DNA of 22,749 nucleotides from a virus: positions 1 to 22,749 of IMG/VR virus record IMGVR_UViG_3300042465_002490; one strand, 5' to 3'. The notes below the pieces were generated by a model, which did not search any database, had not been told where the DNA came from, and saw only the letters and a program-made list of their open reading frames with translations. Of the stretch, positions 1,138-21,786 are shown in pieces; position 1 is the stretch's first letter; every line of letters begins with the position of its first letter. A program made the position numbers and the translations under genes.

Positions 1138-3365
<2,228 letters not shown>

Positions 3366-3369
<4 letters not shown>

Positions 3370-3617: not shown

Positions 3618-4655
3618 ATGAAGATTGCTGTATACACAATCGCTCTCAACGAGGGAAAACATGTCCAGCAATGGGCTGACTCCTGCACCGATGCTGACTA
3701 TCGCCTCATCCTAGACACAGGTTCAACAGACCAAACGACAACCCTCGCCCACCAACTCGGTATCCACACTGTCACTCGTGTTATCAGTCCGTGGAGGTTT
3801 GACACAGCCCGCAACATGGCACTGTCCATGCTCCCCAAAGACATTGACCTGTGCATTGCTTTAGACATGGATGAGCAACTGCAACCAGGCTGGCGTGAAG
3901 CACTAGAAACAATCCCTGCTGGTACGACCCGCCCACGCTATAAATACATCTGGTCATGGAACCCCGACGGGTCTGAAGGCTTGGTTTATGGTGGCGACAA
4001 AATCCACGCCAGACACGGCTACACATGGAAACACCCAGTCCACGAAGTCCTCAAACCCACCGACGGTGAAACCCAACACTGGGTAGACGGGCTACAAATC
4101 CACCACCATCCAGACTCCTCAAAGTCCCGCAGTCAATACCTGCCCCTACTCAAACTTGCTGTAGAAGAAGACCCTAGGGATGACCGCAACCAGTTCTACC
4201 TAGCCCGTGAGTTGTTCTTTCACGGGGACTATGCCTTAAGCCAGTATCATTTTGCACGGCATCTAGACATATCCACTTGGAACCCAGAGAGGGCAGCCAG
4301 CCATAGGTACCTAGCCAAGATGGTACCCCTTGTAGCCGACTACCACCTGTATCGTGCCATTTCTGAAGACCCAACCCGTCGTGAATCATGGGTTGCTTTA
4401 GCGATGTACTACCACGAGAAACGCAATTGGCTCGGAGTTAGAAACGCAGCATCCTCGGCTTTAGCAATCACCGAGAAACCTTTGGACTATCTTTGTGAAG
4501 CAGACGCTTGGGGTTGGCTACCACACGACCTAATGGCTATAGCCTGCCACCACCTCGGAGACACAGACGAAGCGTTCTACCACGGTGCTGAAGCGGTGGC
4601 GTTAAACCCAACAGATGAAAGACTTAAGACAAACCTGTCTCATTATCGGCTATGA
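3618..4655 (+). CDS. GT2 family glycosyltransferase with C-terminal TPR-like repeats
   Basis: A 345-aa protein. The N-terminus (residues 1-130) is a GT-A fold family 2 glycosyltransferase: an ALNEGKHVQQW start, LDTGSTD at 32-38 for nucleotide-sugar binding, and a DMDE metal-binding motif at 83-86. Residues about 185-345 are helical TPR-like repeats (HLGDTDEAFYHGAEAVALNP). The start was set at ATG 3618 because AGAAGGGA lies 6 nt upstream; an in-frame ATG at 3591 lacks a ribosome site. The gene sits between fibre and adaptor genes, so a virion protein such as the Thr-rich collagen fibre is a plausible substrate. Host surface glycan modification is the alternative. Confidence 0.85.
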   Translation: MKIAVYTIALNEGKHVQQWADSCTDADYRLILDTGSTDQTTTLAHQLGIHTVTRVISPWRFDTARNMALSMLPKDIDLCIALDMDEQLQPGWREALETIPAGTTRPRYKYIWSWNPDGSEGLVYGGDKIHARHGYTWKHPVHEVLKPTDGETQHWVDGLQIHHHPDSSKSRSQYLPLLKLAVEEDPRDDRNQFYLARELFFHGDYALSQYHFARHLDISTWNPERAASHRYLAKMVPLVADYHLYRAISEDPTRRESWVALAMYYHEKRNWLGVRNAASSALAITEKPLDYLCEADAWGWLPHDLMAIACHHLGDTDEAFYHGAEAVALNPTDERLKTNLSHYRL

Positions 4656-8864: not shown

Positions 8865-9091
8865 TGATTAAACTACAAACCCTCATCCTCCGAATCTTTG
8901 GGGTATTCGGCTCATCCGCACTCGCAGCCGTAGCAGGTGGCGCAATCTTCGGAGTTGAACTCTGGAAATCAGCAGCCATCGCAGGTGTAGTAGCCGCAGG
9001 TAAAGTAACTGAAGCCCTGCTTCGTTCATGGTCTGAAGACGGTACGCTTACTAAAGAAGAAGTTGCAGCAGCCTTCGGCAAAAAGGCGTAG
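8864..9091 (+). CDS. Holin candidate, small membrane protein
   Basis: A 75-aa protein. A hydrophobic stretch from about residue 8 to 46 (IFGVFGSSALAAVAGGAIFG, then AAIAGVVAAG) could form two short or one long membrane segment, rich in small residues. The charged C-terminal tail (EDGTLTKEEVAAAFGKKA) resembles the cytoplasmic ends of small actinophage holins. It comes first in the lysis region, ahead of the endolysin at 10417, and overlaps the next gene by 29 nt. The holin role is inferred from size, topology and place. Confidence 0.65.
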   Translation: MIKLQTLILRIFGVFGSSALAAVAGGAIFGVELWKSAAIAGVVAAGKVTEALLRSWSEDGTLTKEEVAAAFGKKA

Positions 9092-10226
9092 CCGTTACGC
9101 CCTCGTAGGGGTTGTACTTTCCATTCTGTTTCTGTCATCTAGTGCTAGTGCAGAAAATCCAATCATCACTGGTATCACTGATTACTGGTTTGAATACACC
9201 GAGCCGACACAGTTTGAGGCACGGACATACATGGTTGACGGGCATCCGTCTGACCCTCAACTGTGGCTGTACGACGAGCAAGGTGTTTTACTTGTCAGCG
9301 TTGATGACCATTTCGGTTTACAGTCATACATTTCCAGAGAGGTGCAGCCTGGTCGGTACCGCCTGCGGGCGGGTACTTGCTGTTGGCAACCAGATATTTG
9401 GCGTGGAGGTAACGGCTGGAATGAACGGTATGAGTTGAGTTTCAATGGGGAACCAGCGAACACCACATCCACTACTGAGGAGCCGACAACTACTACATCG
9501 TCTACTACCACGACCTCTACTTCTACAACCTCTACAACTAGCACCACCACAACATCTACGACCACTACAACCAGCACGACCACTACAACCAGCACTACAT
9601 CTACGACTAGTACGACATCTACAACCCTTGCACCAACGACCACAACAACGCTGCCACCAACAACAACCACGGTACGCCCAACGACAACAACCACATCGTC
9701 TACCACCACCACAACAGTAACGCCCACAACAACCACAGAGTTGCCAACAACCACCACATCTACTGTTCCCATTCCTCAAACAACTGTTGCTCCATTGCCT
9801 GTGCTAACCACGACAACGGTAACCATGCCAACAACTTCAACAAGTACATCTACTACCTCCACTACAACAACGACGACAACGCTACCACCAGTTGTTGTGC
9901 CTCCTGTCGTAAGTCCTGAACAAGCAGTGGCTCTGGCTACAAGTTCTGAAGCGTTGGCTACCATCACAGCCGAGGAAGCAACCCAAGTCTTTGACGCTCT
10001 GGTAGTTGATGACTTAAGTGAGGAGCAACTTACTGAACTGGTGTCAGCAGTCCAATCCGCACCCGTGTCTGTCAGAAAAAGTTTTGAATCATCAGTCAAT
10101 GTATTCGGTGGGGCAGTAGACACCTATGTCCCCATCGGTTCAACGGTACCTGTCAGTACCCGTCGTGCCCTCATCGCCATCACAATCATGACCTCACTCA
10201 TGGCTATCCCAACTAAACGAAAGTGA
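9063..10226 (+). CDS. Secreted Thr-rich protein with C-terminal membrane anchor
   Basis: A 387-aa protein from TTG 9063; no later in-frame start precedes the signal peptide. Residues 1-30 are a signal peptide (KRRSR, then VVLSILFLSSSASA). Residues 31-135 form a beta-sandwich-like domain with PQLWLYDEQGVLL and GRYRLRAGTCCW, resembling bacterial pre-peptidase C-terminal-like domains. Residues about 136-275 are a Thr/Ser/Pro-rich mucin-like linker. The C-terminal domain has paired SEEQLTELVSAV-type helices and a VNVFGGAVDTYVPIGS motif. It ends in a short hydrophobic segment and TKRK. Similar Thr-rich and 'VNxFGG...YVPxGS' endings occur, as I recall, in Acidimicrobiia secreted proteins, suggesting host origin. 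It may be a surface or superinfection factor. Confidence 0.7.
   Translation: MQQPSAKRRSRYALVGVVLSILFLSSSASAENPIITGITDYWFEYTEPTQFEARTYMVDGHPSDPQLWLYDEQGVLLVSVDDHFGLQSYISREVQPGRYRLRAGTCCWQPDIWRGGNGWNERYELSFNGEPANTTSTTEEPTTTTSSTTTTSTSTTSTTSTTTTSTTTTTSTTTTTSTTSTTSTTSTTLAPTTTTTLPPTTTTVRPTTTTTSSTTTTTVTPTTTTELPTTTTSTVPIPQTTVAPLPVLTTTTVTMPTTSTSTSTTSTTTTTTTLPPVVVPPVVSPEQAVALATSSEALATITAEEATQVFDALVVDDLSEEQLTELVSAVQSAPVSVRKSFESSVNVFGGAVDTYVPIGSTVPVSTRRALIAITIMTSLMAIPTKRK
9463..9890 (+). repeat. Low-complexity ACN-rich tract encoding the Thr linker
   Basis: About 430 bp dominated by ACA, ACC, ACG and ACT codons with interspersed TCN and CCN. It encodes Thr/Ser/Pro runs. The base composition (CA-rich on the plus strand) differs sharply from both flanks of the gene and opens spurious long frames on the opposite strand. 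Confidence 0.85.
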
Positions 10227-18214: not shown

Positions 18215-18378
18215 GACTTAAGTCCTTCTGTATTGTCAAGTCGTTCAAGTGTGATTAAGTATCCATCTCCGATGTCATCGTTCATGTCTTTAATCATCGG
18301 GCTGAAGTGGTAAGTGATGAGTCCATCTACTGACCTATCTTCGGCGTGTTCAATGGTGATAAGTAACTGTGTCTTCAT
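18211..18378 (-). CDS. 55-aa protein, function unknown (CTTAAG block at both ends)
   Basis: MKTQLLITIEHAEDRSVDGL continues to DMNDDIGDGYLITLERLDNT and ends EGLKS. The ATG follows AGGTCTTAAGTC. The C-terminal GLKS and the TGA stop are encoded by the next copy of the block. The composition is acidic and beta-rich. It overlaps the next gene by 4 nt. A clear example of a small gene framed by two copies of the motif. Confidence 0.65.
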   Translation of the reverse strand: MKTQLLITIEHAEDRSVDGLITYHFSPMIKDMNDDIGDGYLITLERLDNTEGLKS

Positions 18379-18381
18379 GAC

Positions 18382-18645
18382 TTAAGACCTCACTTGCTTA
18401 TTGACAATGGTCTTGAATGTTGAGGTGTCGGTGGTCATGAACCCAGTACCATCGTCAATCAACGGGTACACAGTCACGCTCATCTGTCCGTCACCTGCGT
18501 ACAGGTTAAGGTCGTAGCCAGCGTGTGAGTTCCACTCGTCATGCTCTTGGTCTGCGTGGTGCCACTTCGGGTGCGTCATGCTGAACAGTAAAGCCCATGA
18601 CTTGCCAAACATTTCTACGCTCTTAGGTATGTCAAATGTTTTCAT
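18382..18645 (-). CDS. Small protein, function unknown
   Basis: An 87-aa protein. MKTFDIPKSVEMFGKSWALL, then HPKWHHADQEHDEWNSHAGY and LYAGDGQMSVTVYPLIDDGT. The His/Trp-rich centre (HPKWHHADQEH) could bind a metal, but no known motif is complete. The ATG is preceded by AAAGGACTTAAGTC. Here the downstream block is read in another frame, so the protein ends VRS with TAA inside CTTAAG, not GLKS. Confidence 0.65.
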   Translation of the reverse strand: MKTFDIPKSVEMFGKSWALLFSMTHPKWHHADQEHDEWNSHAGYDLNLYAGDGQMSVTVYPLIDDGTGFMTTDTSTFKTIVNKQVRS

Positions 18646-18833
18646 GACTTAAGTCCTTTGTTCTTGTGCTTGGTTTCAATGGCTACTGCCACGCCCCAAC
18701 GCTCGCTATCGCTGGCATCTTCCACATCACGCCAGTCATCATCTGACCAGTCTGTCGTGACGATGCGGATAAGTTTCTTTGCTGAACCATACGACCCATC
18801 TTCCGTGAAGTAATGTACTTCTCTATCTTTCAT
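18642..18833 (-). CDS. Small acidic protein, first gene after a structured leader
   Basis: A 63-aa protein. MKDREVHYFTEDGSYGSAKK, then IVTTDWSDDDWRDVEDASDS and ERWGVAVAIETKHKNKGLKS. Its start is not a CTTAAG block but AAGGGG in a small hairpin, below the tRNA-like leader at 18885-18928. The end reads GLKS from the next block. It begins a run of five or six overlapping genes. Function unknown. Confidence 0.65.
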   Translation of the reverse strand: MKDREVHYFTEDGSYGSAKKLIRIVTTDWSDDDWRDVEDASDSERWGVAVAIETKHKNKGLKS

Positions 18834-18943
18834 TTCGTATTCCCCTTCTAGGATTACCTACTGCTACACCCCTTCGGTGTTGCATGGTGGGTGGTCAGGA
18901 CTTGCACCTGACTGTCTGCTAGTCACCCTGTCTGACTTAAGAC
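18834..18943 (-). promoter_or_regulatory. Structured RNA leader with tRNA-like minihelix
   Basis: Read on the minus strand: outer stem GGGTG (18924-18928) with CACCC (18889-18893). An 11-nt linker ACTAGCAGACA follows. The inner stem GTCAGG (18907-18912) with CCTGAC (18894-18899) closes a 7-nt loop TGCAAGT, and the tail reads ACCA. The inner stem abuts the outer one with no gap, as a tRNA T-arm stacks on its acceptor. A hairpin ACACC/GGTGT (18866-18880) and a weak hairpin around AAGGGG follow before ATG. CTTAAG lies at 18936-18941. No convincing promoter is visible immediately upstream, so it may lie within a longer transcript. Confidence 0.65.
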
Positions 18944-19138
18944 TCAGCCTTTACTTATCACTTGCTGTGCTAAATCTCTAATGCTTTTATTGTGCTTGAC
19001 TTGGCGAGCATACGCTTCGCTACCATCATCTTCTGTTAGATACATCCAGTTGCAAGCGTCTTTGTATGTGTCGTTGGCTATTGCCCTGACCCAGTTCATC
19101 TGCTCCCTCGTGAATGTAACCGTTACGGTATCTTCCAT
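18944..19138 (-). CDS. Small protein, function unknown
   Basis: A 64-aa protein. ATG (19136-19138) was chosen because AAGGGA lies 5 nt upstream; a TTG at 19159 is the longer alternative. MEDTVTVTFTREQMNWVRAI is followed by ANDTYKDACNWMYLTEDDGS and helices to QQVISKG. A strand then a helix-rich body is seen. It is the first gene behind the promoter at 19181-19209. No family recognised. Confidence 0.6.
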   Translation of the reverse strand: MEDTVTVTFTREQMNWVRAIANDTYKDACNWMYLTEDDGSEAYARQVKHNKSIRDLAQQVISKG

Positions 19139-19180
19139 TGCTTCCCTTACTTTCTTCAAGTTGTTTAACTTGATATCTCA

Positions 19181-19234
19181 ACTGTAACACAGTTCATGTT
19201 ACTTGTCAAGTCTTTTCTTCGTGACTCTTGTCAC
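19181..19234 (-). promoter_or_regulatory. Sigma70-like promoter with upstream inverted repeat
   Basis: On the minus strand TTGACA (19204-19209), 17 nt, then TACAGT (19181-19186). Upstream, GTGAC-TCTT-GTCAC (19221-19234) is an inverted repeat centred 18.5 bp from the -35 edge. The promoter at 20601 has a similar repeat at exactly the same distance. CTTAAG at 19244-19249 lies just beyond. It drives the gene at 18944 and possibly the run below it. Confidence 0.75.
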
Positions 19235-19395
19235 ACCATCAGACTTAAGTCAGGTCTTACGACTCGCTCTATCTGAACATCCTTGCACCCAACTTCAATC
19301 CAATCGGAAGCGACCACTAAAGCCTCGCTCCACAACAGATAGAAGTCATGCACCTGCACATCACCAACGGTCACCGTGTATTTCTGTGTGCTCAT
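19231..19395 (-). CDS. 54-aa protein, function unknown
   Basis: MSTQKYTVTVGDVQVHDFYL is followed by LWSEALVVASDWIEVGCKDV and QIERVVRPDL. A strand, a helix and a final 'DV.IE.V' strand fit a small alpha-beta fold found in short actinophage proteins. The start overlaps the upstream stop (TGATG). A longer frame to 19497 runs through the neighbouring gene and is rejected. The end touches the inverted repeat of the next promoter. Confidence 0.6.
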   Translation of the reverse strand: MSTQKYTVTVGDVQVHDFYLLWSEALVVASDWIEVGCKDVQIERVVRPDLSLMV

Positions 19396-19901
19396 CAGCC
19401 GTACACAACCTCTCCGAGAAGAATGAACTGCACCACTTGGTCTGCGTTGATACAGTCCCAGTCGTTGAACGCACAGTCCAACCCGTGATACATACAAAGC
19501 AAAGCCTTAAGTGTTGTGTCATTAAGTCTGCCGTGTTCAGGTATCTGACTTAAGTCAAGGTCACCCTTGCCTACCTTCGTGATGAAGTCGGCAATGATTT
19601 CGCTGTCAATGTAGAGAGGCTTACCGAACTTAAGCCAAGCACCACCGTACCCATCAAAGCCTTTGGTTTCCATGCCGTACTCGGGGTCGTCCTGCCCCAC
19701 CTCTTCTAAGTCCTCCTCCTCGTAGAGCGTGACGCTTGCGTGCGTCCCCATCTTGCCTAGTTCGTAGTCCTTGCCGTCGTTCGCCCACTTGTAGGTGCCG
19801 TTCGCTACCGCCCATGATGCGATACCGCATGACCCCCCTTCGTATGCGTCAATGAGAATAGAGCAAGCGTTGTCTATGAGTTGTTCCCGTGTTGCTAACA
19901 T
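19395..19901 (-). CDS. Conserved phage protein, function unknown
   Basis: A 168-aa protein. ATG (19899-19901) follows GGGGGTG and overlaps nothing essential upstream. MLATREQLIDNACSILIDAY, EGGSCGIASWA and KPLYIDSEIIADFI are followed by a C-terminal FNDWDCINADQVVQFILLGE plus VVYG. The 'D....D.vvQ..LFGEvvYG' ending and the EGGS segment occur in a common actinophage early protein; I know no function. It is co-transcribed with the genes at 19903 and 19231. Confidence 0.65.
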   Translation of the reverse strand: MLATREQLIDNACSILIDAYEGGSCGIASWAVANGTYKWANDGKDYELGKMGTHASVTLYEEEDLEEVGQDDPEYGMETKGFDGYGGAWLKFGKPLYIDSEIIADFITKVGKGDLDLSQIPEHGRLNDTTLKALLCMYHGLDCAFNDWDCINADQVVQFILLGEVVYG

Positions 19902-19902
19902 C

Positions 19903-20490
19903 TCACACCCCCACAATCTGTGTCATTGCTGACTTAAGTACCGAGATGAGGCGTTCCATCTGCGCTTTGTTGAAGTCAAGATGAATGTCACGGTGTCGCC
20001 ATTGGTCGGTCAGTCTTTCCGTTTTGTCAAGCAACTCAAGATTGAACAATAGGTTCGCTAACTCGGCACGGGTGGCTACGAACTGTTCGTGCTCTTCGTT
20101 CTGTTTGTCTGCCTCACGCTGGTTCCGTTCTTGTGTCTCAATAAAATCGGCAAGCATACTTGCCTCTGTTTTCTCTGACTTAAGTACGAGGCGGGTAGGC
20201 ATTGACTCAACACTCCCGTAGGTAACGAAGCACCGTTCTGCTATCGGGCGGGTATCGTAAATCCACTCGCCTTGTTCATCTTCAAGGTACTTGCTACCAT
20301 CTTCTGTCTTAAGGTGGTTTTCTCGGTTGAAGTACACGCCTTTAACTCTGACATAAGACTTGTCATGAGCCATGCCTATCACTTGGTACCATCTCGGGTA
20401 CTCGCTGTACTTGCCCGCAACCATGTTGCCATTGGTGAATATCGCTTGCGGATTGCTCACAATAATCTCTAGTATGTCTTGTCTTTTCAT
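19903..20490 (-). CDS. Protein with N-terminal beta domain and coiled coil
   Basis: A 195-aa protein. The first 70 residues are beta-rich (GKYSEYPRWYQVIGMAHDKS, YVRVKGVYFNRENHL), followed by a charged linker. A helix and coiled coil cover about 110-170 (ADFIETQERNQREADKQNEE), with amphipathic helices to the end. It starts at ATG below the tRNA-like leader and hairpin at 20497-20513, and is the first gene of its operon. No family recognised. Confidence 0.65.
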   Translation of the reverse strand: MKRQDILEIIVSNPQAIFTNGNMVAGKYSEYPRWYQVIGMAHDKSYVRVKGVYFNRENHLKTEDGSKYLEDEQGEWIYDTRPIAERCFVTYGSVESMPTRLVLKSEKTEASMLADFIETQERNQREADKQNEEHEQFVATRAELANLLFNLELLDKTERLTDQWRHRDIHLDFNKAQMERLISVLKSAMTQIVGV

Positions 20491-20594
20491 TTTACTAATC
20501 CCCTTCTAGGATTTGTCTACTGCTTCGGCACTTTGCCTTGGCATGGTGAGCGGGTAGGACTTGCACCTATCTGTCTGCTGGTCGCTCGTTGTAT
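20491..20594 (-). promoter_or_regulatory. Structured RNA leader, second tRNA-like minihelix
   Basis: Minus strand: outer stem GAGCG (20583-20587) with CGCTC (20548-20552), and linker ACCAGCAGACA. The inner stem GATAGG (20566-20571) with CCTACC (20553-20558) has one A-C mismatch. The loop is TGCAAGT and the tail ACCA. Against the copy at 18885 the outer stem differs at two pairs, and both remain paired (covariation). A hairpin GGCA/TGCC (20527-20537) follows. AATCC/GGATT (20497-20513) closes over AAGGGG, the gene's ribosome site. The predicted transcript start is only about 7 nt before the first stem. Confidence 0.7.
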
Positions 20595-20600
20595 GTATTT

Positions 20601-20656
20601 ATTTAATCAAATGTTTAACGCTATGTCAAGGGTATTCGGTGTGAACTTTGTCACAC
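20601..20656 (-). promoter_or_regulatory. Sigma70-like promoter with upstream inverted repeat
   Basis: On the minus strand TTGACA (20624-20629), 17 nt, then TTAAAT (20601-20606). Inverted repeat GTGTGA-n6-TCACAC (20639-20656) is centred 18.5 bp from the -35 edge, the same distance as at the 19181 promoter. CTTAAG at 20663-20668 is just upstream. It would produce the leader and the operon from 20490 down. Confidence 0.7.
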
Positions 20657-20806
20657 TCCTGTCTTAAGACCCGCCAACTCCTCGCTCGTGTAGAGAATGA
20701 GACTGCGCAAGTCTGTCGCCAGTCGGGTACGGCTACCATGTAGGTCTACCTCTACTTCTAAGTCTGCCTCTAACATTCTTAGGTACGCCTCTAGTTCTTC
20801 TCTCAT
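20651..20806 (-). CDS. 51-aa protein, function unknown
   Basis: MREELEAYLRMLEADLEVEV continues to DLHGSRTRLATDLRSLILYT and ends SEELAGLKTGV. It is a helical, acidic protein with a leucine-rich N-terminal half. The ATG follows AGGTCTTAAGTC and overlaps the upstream stop (ATGA). Its stop lies within the inverted repeat of the next promoter. No function can be assigned. Confidence 0.6.
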   Translation of the reverse strand: MREELEAYLRMLEADLEVEVDLHGSRTRLATDLRSLILYTSEELAGLKTGV

Positions 20807-20991
20807 GACTTAAGACCTACCGAACTACCCGATACCCACCGTGAGCCTGACCCTGCGACAGGGGAGACGAGGTAATCCACCGCCCCCCAGCGCAATCGGC
20901 TGTCGGTAATCGTGACCTCGTACTTAAGACCTGACCCGTCCTCCCACTCGGCTACCTTCCCGATGTTCTTGATTAGTTCTAATGTTGTCAT
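20803..20991 (-). CDS. Small SH3-like protein, function unknown
   Basis: A 62-aa protein. MTTLELIKNIGKVAEWEDGS is followed by GLKYEVTITDSRLRWGAVDY and LVSPVAGSGSRWV. A helix then a run of strands (VTITDSRLRWG, DYLVSPVAG) suggests a small beta-barrel like those in many short phage proteins. It starts after AAGGACTTAAGTC and ends GLKS from the next copy. Function unknown. Confidence 0.65.
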   Translation of the reverse strand: MTTLELIKNIGKVAEWEDGSGLKYEVTITDSRLRWGAVDYLVSPVAGSGSRWVSGSSVGLKS

Positions 20992-21467
20992 GACTTAAGT
21001 CCTTCCCTGATTGTGTTCATGATTCCGTCGGCGTGTCCTCGTGTCCACTCCCACGCTATGTTGTCGTCCTCGTTTGCGATTATCCCGCACACCTTCCGCC
21101 TAATAGCCGAGCAGATAGCCTTTGCTAGTGATGCGTCCCAAGTAGGAGCCTCACACGACTGGTACTCATAGCCTCGTAACGAGTGGAGCACTTGACCCCA
21201 CGAGATGACGGGACCACCGAGATAGGGAGCGATGCCGTTGCCGTTGTAGCGGTACGCTTCGCACGGTGTCGCCTCCTGATAGCGATAGTTCACGCTGTCA
21301 TAGTTTGCTGTCTTAAGTATGGAGCCGAGCCTGTCTGCGTCCTCGTGCTGGTTGAAGTAGTGCCACTCACCATCTCGGAAGATGCCGAGTCTGTCGTCTC
21401 GTGTGCCTCGTAGTCCTACTGCTACGAGTAGGTCTATGGTGTCGTCACCTAATATGTATGCGCTCAT
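20988..21467 (-). CDS. Conserved phage early protein, function unknown
   Basis: A 159-aa protein. LGIFRDGEWHYFNQHEDADR is followed by LGSILKTANYDSVNYRYQEA, then LHSLRGYEYQSCEAPTWDAS and a helical end. 'N..SVn.RY' then 'YeYQSCE...W..S.A' is a recurring signature in phage hypothetical proteins of actinophages; no biochemical role is known to me. It starts after AGGACTTAAGTC and ends GLKS. It overlaps both neighbours by 4 nt. Confidence 0.72.
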   Translation of the reverse strand: MSAYILGDDTIDLLVAVGLRGTRDDRLGIFRDGEWHYFNQHEDADRLGSILKTANYDSVNYRYQEATPCEAYRYNGNGIAPYLGGPVISWGQVLHSLRGYEYQSCEAPTWDASLAKAICSAIRRKVCGIIANEDDNIAWEWTRGHADGIMNTIREGLKS

Positions 21468-21667
21468 GACTTAAGTCCTGCTTCTGCCATTGTGCGCCAC
21501 ATCTGTGCGATGTCTCCCGCTTGCTCCTCGGTGAGGCATGGGATAGTGAATGTGTGACTGTCGGAACTGTCACCTGTTGGACTCGCTACCCATATCTCTA
21601 CGGTGGTGCCCCATAGCATGACTGCTACGATGCGCCCTTTCTTGTGTGTGTGAAAATGTGTTTCCAT
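21464..21667 (-). CDS. Small protein, first gene after a hairpin-rich leader
   Basis: A 67-aa protein. The start is METHFHTHKKGRIVAVMLWG at ATG 21665-21667, because AAGGGGG precedes it; an upstream in-frame ATG at 21748 would run through stable hairpins. The middle (TVEIWVASPTGDSSDSHTFT) is beta-rich, and the end is a helix finishing GLKS from the CTTAAG block. The His-rich N-terminus (HFHTH) may bind metal. Function unknown. Confidence 0.65.
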   Translation of the reverse strand: METHFHTHKKGRIVAVMLWGTTVEIWVASPTGDSSDSHTFTIPCLTEEQAGDIAQMWRTMAEAGLKS

Positions 21668-21786
21668 GTTGTCCCCCTTGGGATTATGTAGAGCCTTAGT
21701 GCTCCCTAGAAAGTTCGTGTCGTAAGACATGAACCCTCTAGGCAACACCTCCCCCGTAGGGGAGGGGCTACCTCTGTCTTAAGTCC
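21668..21786 (-). promoter_or_regulatory. Hairpin-rich intergenic leader
   Basis: Minus strand, in order: CTTAAG at 21778-21783; a 7-bp stem CCTCCCC/GGGGAGG (21748-21765) closed by a UACG tetraloop; a long stem (21705-21742) of CCTAGA/TCTAGG plus GTTCATGTC/GACACGAAC with G-U pairs between; a GAGC/GCTC hairpin; and TCCC/GGGA (21672-21683) around the ribosome site. There is no T tract, so it is more likely a processing or stability element than a terminator. No promoter is evident. Confidence 0.6.

Follow-up and report, generated by a model that had tools for sequence, protein, structure and literature searches.

Two copies of an RNA element on the minus strand of the window (the whole 22,749-nucleotide stretch of viral DNA that was analysed) belong to a family of which at least 303 distinct copies were recovered from 141 loci, mainly in phages of Actinobacteria and also in one phage of the Bacteroidota (Riemerella). 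Sequence comparison argues that the element folds into a pseudoknotted minimal mimic of tRNA, 40 nt long, consisting of a 5-bp (sometimes 6-bp) acceptor-like stem (P1), an 11-nt linker, a 6-bp T-arm (P2) and a T-loop, with P1 apparently stacked coaxially on P2. Both the RNA family and its fold are virtually certain to be real. The family appears to be undescribed so far: no Rfam family matches the element above threshold, and no paper describing it was found in the open-access literature. To our knowledge, it is the smallest mimic of the tRNA elbow, its pseudoknot is absent from tRNA, and as a tRNA-like structure it is new both in the topology of its elbow and in its genomic use.

Two copies in the window

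The first copy (18885..18932, minus strand) is matched by covariance model R1, which was built from an alignment of 76 diverse copies, at 63.2 bits (E 1.1e-14), and shares in the covariation of the family. Its P1 (GGGTG, 18928-18924, with CACCC, 18893-18889) is followed by the D-loop-like linker ACTAGCAGACA (18923-18913), by a P2 arm (GTCAGG, 18912-18907, with CCTGAC, 18899-18894) that encloses the T-loop TGCAAGT (18906-18900), and, beyond the helix, by an unpaired purine and a cytosine at the positions equivalent to 73 and 74 of tRNA (R73-C74, 18888-18887). The second copy (20544..20591, minus strand; R1 54.6 bits, E 2.4e-12) has a P1 of GAGCG (20587-20583) with CGCTC (20552-20548), the linker ACCAGCAGACA (20582-20572), a P2 arm of GATAGG (20571-20566) with CCTACC (20558-20553), an identical T-loop (20565-20559), and R73-C74 at 20547-20546. 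The initial annotation, made from the window alone, had noted that the second linker has the same 11-nt length, identical at 10 positions, and the same loop, and that two P1 pairs change in a compensatory manner; both observations hold, the two pairs differing on both sides (G-C to A-U and U-A to C-G). The 6-bp arm that it described is formed by the first copy, but the second has an A-C mismatch and only 5 of the 6 pairs. It had correctly considered the structure too small for a tRNA: ARAGORN called no tRNA in the window, and a cloverleaf is ruled out because only the 11-nt linker lies between the stems, with no anticodon arm.

Both copies precede genes on the same strand. Directly 3′ of the first copy is a predicted hairpin (P3, 18862..18884, minus strand), then a small predicted hairpin (18837..18857, minus strand) that contains the Shine-Dalgarno-like sequence AGAAGGGG (18849-18842), and then the ATG (18833) of a gene for a 63-aa protein (18642..18833, minus strand); the upstream gene (18944..19159, minus strand) ends with a stop codon 15 nt before P1. 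The second copy is likewise followed by a predicted P3 hairpin (20521..20543, minus strand) and a small predicted hairpin with AGAAGGGG (20494..20516, minus strand), before the ATG at 20490 of a gene for a 195-aa protein (19903..20490, minus strand). Neither downstream protein has a match in Pfam or PHROG. A possible promoter, TTGACA-N17-TTAAAT (20601..20629, minus strand), recognised by eye from its resemblance to the consensus, lies just upstream of the second copy and could place it near the 5′ end of a transcript. The window includes WhiB-like and transglycosylase-like genes, which fit an actinobacterial host.

Two copies alone are weak evidence for an RNA structure, because a 13-nt loop probe with two mismatches allowed finds at least two matches in 15% of shuffled sequences. 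Energy folding predicts the described fold for the first copy and not for the second, and minimum free energy structures show both stems in 109 of 176 copies of the family; for both reasons, energy folding is uninformative by itself.

Homology search and covariation

The first search pattern, in which the linker, the loop and a few bases of the arm were fixed, found 17 further virus contigs, and looser patterns gave many more among the matches listed. P1 was never constrained by any pattern, and positions 73 and 74 were free in all of them; linker positions 5 to 7, loop positions 1 and 5, and in most patterns linker 10 and loop 6 were fixed, so that invariance at these positions is not a measurement. 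A tRNA-like minihelix supported by covariation, as had been claimed from the two window copies, was strongly confirmed, with 8 or more of the 11 stem pairs present in 279 of 312 pattern matches. The relatives pair at P1 although the patterns left it free, which settles the observation made in the window.

In the 76-sequence alignment, 97.6% of cells are paired and the covariation score is 0.656, compared with 0.167 when shuffled and no more than 0.155 when the partners are slid; the result is the same for a further set, of 118 distinct rows, that was aligned with the model itself. Both stems covary while the length of P1 plus P2 stays near-constant at 11 bp, sometimes 12 bp. Searching with R1 recovered both window copies, and locus L070, which has five genuine tRNAs, gave no match to the model. 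Weak R1 matches of 20-28 bits, some of which resemble divergent copies and one of which is inside an annotated coding sequence (L175:14204), were excluded from the covariation statistics. For the statistics on position -1, R73-C74, distance from stop codons, mutual information, and the linker and loop of 305 copies, the pairing of P1 and P2 served as a filter.

A putative elbow formed by linker and T-loop

The consensus of linker positions 1-11 is A C N R G C A G R C A; residues of the loop are numbered 54-60. Among 305 distinct copies, linker 4 and loop 55 (the 18-55 contact of tRNA) are G-U in 240 and A-G in the remaining 65; one scan pattern was open to all four combinations of A or G with G or T, and only these two occur. 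Linker 2 and linker 8 of the same copies are C-G in 218, G-C in 48, A-U in 33 and U-A in five, with one mismatch. Linker 9 and loop 60 are A-U in 208, G-C in 47, C-G in 27, U-A in 15 and otherwise in eight; the mismatch A-C was open in one pattern and C-A or T-G in another, and neither A-C nor C-A was ever seen. Linker 10 and loop 59 are C-G in 294 and G-C in nine, with two mismatches. Linker 5 and loop 56 (the 19-56 contact) are G-C or rarely G-U, which is consistent with pairing and shows no covariation.

When similar neighbourhoods were collapsed into 169 clusters, the mutual information was 0.78 for 18-55, 1.14 for 2-8 and 1.18 for 9-60, compared with shuffled maxima of 0.03, 0.09 and 0.13, respectively. 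A structure-free, corrected ranking of all column pairs, in which the stems had been used as a filter and the tertiary pairs had not, places 9-60, 2-8 and 18-55 on a level with the stem pairs, and 10-59 further down. From these pair statistics it follows that linker positions 4 and 5 act as tRNA residues 18 and 19. The linker is predicted to be a miniature D-loop closing a D-hairpin of one pair, its R18-like and G19-like bases inserted into the T-loop, while linker 9-10 and T-loop 59-60 would form a pseudoknot that gives a minimal elbow. The earlier recognition of a T-loop-like loop is supported; the term minihelix was apt for the acceptor-like stem and T-arm, but a whole elbow is indicated because the linker acts as a miniature D-loop pairing with the T-loop.

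The acceptor-like end

The helix opens with G-C (G1-C72) in 68 of the 76 aligned copies and ends with R73-C74, present in 242 of the 243 copies whose P1 is not extended and in 297 of 305 copies of a wider set, all selected for pairing of the stems. In the few copies with a 6-bp P1 (L076, L082, L138), the purine and cytosine shift along with the helix end. With the same selection, position -1 is A in 67% of copies and T in 3%, by which the -1/73 position stays unpaired. The ACCA end seen in the window does not extend to the family: positions 75 and 76 are variable, there is no encoded CCA, and only R73-C74 is kept. The alignments thus point to an elbow and an acceptor-like end that are separated by a fixed 11 bp (sometimes 12 bp), the latter comprising G1-C72, unpaired -1/73, R73 and C74.

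Position in phage genomes

The initial annotation placed the element in an operon leader. The family supports a leader position, for the most part one between cistrons directly behind a stop codon, and a single phage may have many copies. In 13 annotated phage records, 60 of 62 copies (weak R1 matches included) are intergenic, and the next start codon is at a median of 45 nt downstream. Among 224 copies that have an upstream orf (by a simple longest-frame rule, and with paired stems), the distance from its stop codon to P1 is 6, 7 or 8 nt in 104 and less than 6 nt in only eight. The typical order on the 3′ side is a P3 hairpin, a Shine-Dalgarno sequence and a start codon; a P3 hairpin starting at +3 to +5 after P1 was found in 126 of 169 cases, with a mean z of -1.77. 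Some phages have 8-10 copies, confined to a region that appears from its gene content to be expressed early, and in phage Joe all copies are in one block of the right arm on one strand. Of the intergenic gaps in six such annotated regions, 59 measure 60 nt or more and 41 are shorter; the element is present in 46 of the former and absent from all of the latter.

BLAST matched 258 phage records, 140 of them over at least 80% of the query, with phages of Streptomyces (114) and Mycobacterium (52) leading; some of the weaker matches are real tRNAs, such as those that overlap annotated tRNA genes. Model matches were found in phages of Streptomyces (Joe, Izzy, Endor2, phiScoe15), Mycobacterium (Predator, Papyrus, Megatron06), Gordonia, Actinomyces and Bifidobacterium, and in Riemerella phage GDF21. 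The Riemerella phage carries two copies in one intergenic region (L176 752-799 and 889-936), by which the family reaches beyond the Actinobacteria. A close copy is present in a metagenome-assembled genome (MAG) of Acidimicrobiaceae, and the element is on the bacterial chromosome in two of the 12 genomes reached through the loci. Chromosome scans of low sensitivity found it in 3 of 396 within the phylum of Xylanimonas and in 0 of 296 within the phylum of an Alloprevotella MAG, which supports phage specificity, short of proof.

In the phage records examined, the elements are unannotated except for one copy in Endor2, the 3′ half of a tRNA-Arg (L186 4370-4452, in GenBank and by ARAGORN) being the element copy at 4407-4454; this tRNA-Arg is most likely a false call. 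The annotated start of gp54 of Mycobacterium phage Beckerton (L191 3001) falls inside an element copy and is therefore probably wrong. Being neither a gene nor a tRNA, the element seems to have been overlooked in the well-studied phages of Streptomyces and Mycobacterium, in which it is abundant.

Resemblance to tRNA and to tRNA-like RNAs

The element shares with tRNA the residues U54, C56, R57 and A58, the pair G53-C61, contacts like 18-55 and 19-56, G1-C72, R73 and C74. It differs in having no anticodon arm, a D-stem of a single pair, an 11-bp stack and no CCA, in pairing residues 59-60 with the linker, and in permitting A-G at 18-55.

Its best match in Rfam, below the gathering threshold of 42.5 bits, is mascRNA (RF01684; E 0.11, 26.9 bits). 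The tRNA-like 3′ elements mascRNA and menRNA of MALAT1 and NEAT1 have in common with the phage element an acceptor stem, a T-arm and a reduced D-hairpin that gives two bases to the elbow at the T-loop, all inside a longer transcript. In contrast, mascRNA is an animal nuclear RNA that is released and has a third, anticodon-like stem and a longer acceptor stem, whereas the phage element has no third stem, has Watson-Crick pairs from the linker to 59/60, and lies between protein genes. Both RNase P and RNase Z cut mascRNA, which has the same elbow and a reduced D-arm (PMC11693755).

Possible function

The best mechanism that can be offered for the element is that of an intercistronic signal recognised by RNase P and separating early mRNAs, an assignment made tentatively and at slightly less than an even chance. 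The host RNase P would clamp the elbow and the acceptor end and cut 5′ of P1, splitting the polycistronic early mRNA behind each stop codon; each downstream cistron would gain a folded, tRNA-like 5′ end resisting 5′-end-dependent decay, and with the P3 hairpin and the Shine-Dalgarno sequence next in line, its translation would start independently. With 6-8 nt between the stop codon and P1, such a cut would leave the upstream orf whole and yield a short 5′ leader. RNase P stacks on the 19-56 pair of its substrate and measures to the 5′ end, its landmarks being the elbow face at 19-56, a fixed length of the stack and the 3′ end (PMC4810234, PMC4919913). It is favoured because the elbow contacts, the length of the stack, G1-C72, unpaired -1/73, R73 and C74 are features on which an enzyme gripping both the elbow and the acceptor end would rely, because it is reported to cut phage RNAs and mRNAs (PMC11143913), and because the nearest Rfam model, sub-threshold mascRNA, is a substrate of RNase P and RNase Z. 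It is favoured also because other partners of tRNA fit less. EF-Tu and the CCA-adding enzyme, both put forward in the initial annotation, require a free 3′ end, as do aminoacyl-tRNA synthetases; a tRNA-modifying enzyme acting on U55, as TruB does, is disfavoured by the A-G form of 18-55, TruB requiring U55, which 65 of 305 copies do not have; and RNase Z supplies no reason for keeping C74. Counting against RNase P are the variability of C75 and A76, of which it usually uses C75 as well as C74, and the usual stack of 11 bp, one short of tRNA. Pairing of the RNase P RNA with C74 is not obvious, since that of Xylanimonas (one host, whose genome has one element) has no clear GGU in P15 of the Rfam alignment. 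The spacing of 6-8 nt also counts against it, as a ribosome terminating at the stop codon would keep any downstream fold at this distance.

This last point leads to the possibility that the element is not cut and acts on translation or mRNA stability, the elbow and P3 either shielding the 5′ side of the cistron or abutting the terminating ribosome so as to favour reinitiation or an independent start at the following gene. We consider this unlikely. With P1 6-8 nt after the stop codon, the structure would be approximately where it abuts a ribosome that has the stop codon in its A site, a spacing familiar from frameshift signals; the occupancy of the longer and not the shorter gaps in early regions, the short distance to the next start codon and the P3 hairpin that follows are in agreement. 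Such a role leaves the strict elbow contacts and R73-C74 unexplained, as any stable hairpin would shield, and the second copy in the window has no stop codon close upstream.

A binding site for a protein that recognises the elbow, either a tRNA-binding protein of the host or a regulator encoded by the phage, might coordinate the early genes; this is unlikely as well. A regulon is brought to mind by the confinement of up to 8-10 copies to one early region, where the small genes that they precede are unrelated, and recognition by shape typically goes with a fold that is strictly kept while the stem sequences vary freely. The hosts are very different, however, including that of the Riemerella phage, so the partner protein would have to be conserved and probably host-encoded, and no dedicated phage gene was identified among the phages examined.

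Excision of a stable mini-RNA by RNase P and RNase Z together is improbable: mascRNA, the closest Rfam family, is made this way (PMC11693755), but cleavage by RNase Z after position 73 leaves the conservation of C74 unexplained, and a product made from so many divergent copies in each phage would be redundant. A metabolite riboswitch built on the T-loop, as had been suggested, is more improbable still. The leader position, the conserved loop and linker, and the small predicted hairpin that holds the Shine-Dalgarno sequence in the window would suit a riboswitch; against it, no known riboswitch class of Rfam matched, 8-10 copies in one phage precede unrelated genes with no common regulated function, and elbow pairing accounts for nearly all conserved bases, leaving no obvious ligand pocket. 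That the element is a hairpin arisen by chance or is left over from an attP site or a tRNA gene, as the resemblance of the T-arm half to tRNA and the tRNA-Arg call in Endor2 might suggest, is refuted by the alignment covariation and the mutual information, given hundreds of copies with full covariation that includes non-tRNA contacts, and a model with no match to the real tRNAs of L070.

If RNase P does cut the element, a ribozyme on which the host depends has been recruited by these phages as a general-purpose device for mRNA processing; if it does not, the element represents a new way of starting translation or stabilising mRNA within operons. The element may well enable the tRNA-processing machinery of the host to act on phage mRNAs. 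A phage-wide system of mRNA punctuation, in which mini-tRNAs after many early stop codons would be cut by RNase P to yield separate mRNAs with tRNA-like 5′ ends, is conceivable, and is proposed with a little more reserve than RNase P recognition itself; it would be akin to the tRNA punctuation of mitochondria. The element also explains most of the longer intergenic gaps (60 nt or more) in the early regions that were analysed.

Comparison with other phage RNAs and repeats

C4 and M3, which come from enterobacterial phages, are small RNAs and do not recur between cistrons as the element does. Cleavage by host RNase P has been reported for the C4 antisense RNA of phages P1 and P7, the M3 RNA of phi80, and mRNAs (PMC11143913); C4 and M3 are similar to the element as phage RNAs. 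Cluster K mycobacteriophages have repeats upstream of some non-structural genes, the SAS, 13 bp long and no more than a few nt from the start codon, and the ESAS, made up of 17-bp inverted repeats (PMC3203893). The element is not one of these, by eye: the published SAS GGGATAGGAGCCC is absent from its consensus, and the ESAS layout differs. Intergenic motifs have been published for Microbacterium phages (PMC7302621). The Cluster EC motif TAGACTATAGGTGTAAGC was rejected as a distant member of the family, its sites being promoter-like and the best R1 match having E 0.43. In Microbacterium phage Quhwah (L192, L193), the published 18-bp Cluster EC repeat has TTAGACA approximately 20 nt upstream of TAGACTAT and looks like a promoter. 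A link to cobalamin riboswitches had been raised because the element loop resembles the GGTGNAANTCC-like T-loop (L4) of that class. The element has no cobalamin riboswitch core, its loop pairs with the D-like linker, and the window has no match in Rfam either at gathering thresholds or at E<=5.

Other sequence features of the window

The sequence CTTAAGTC occurs 23 times in the window (0.72 expected), the repeats being in the minus-strand gene cluster at 18215-21785; one of them (18934-18941) is immediately 5′ of the first element copy. Some take the form of the palindrome GACTTAAGTC at gene ends, due to which several of the window's proteins end in GLKS. The repeats are possibly operator or stoperator sites. 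Elsewhere in the window (1138-3369 and 9063-10226) are genes, noted by eye, for a collagen-like protein with GPTGPTG repeats and a threonine-rich repeat protein, which are probably fibre or surface proteins.
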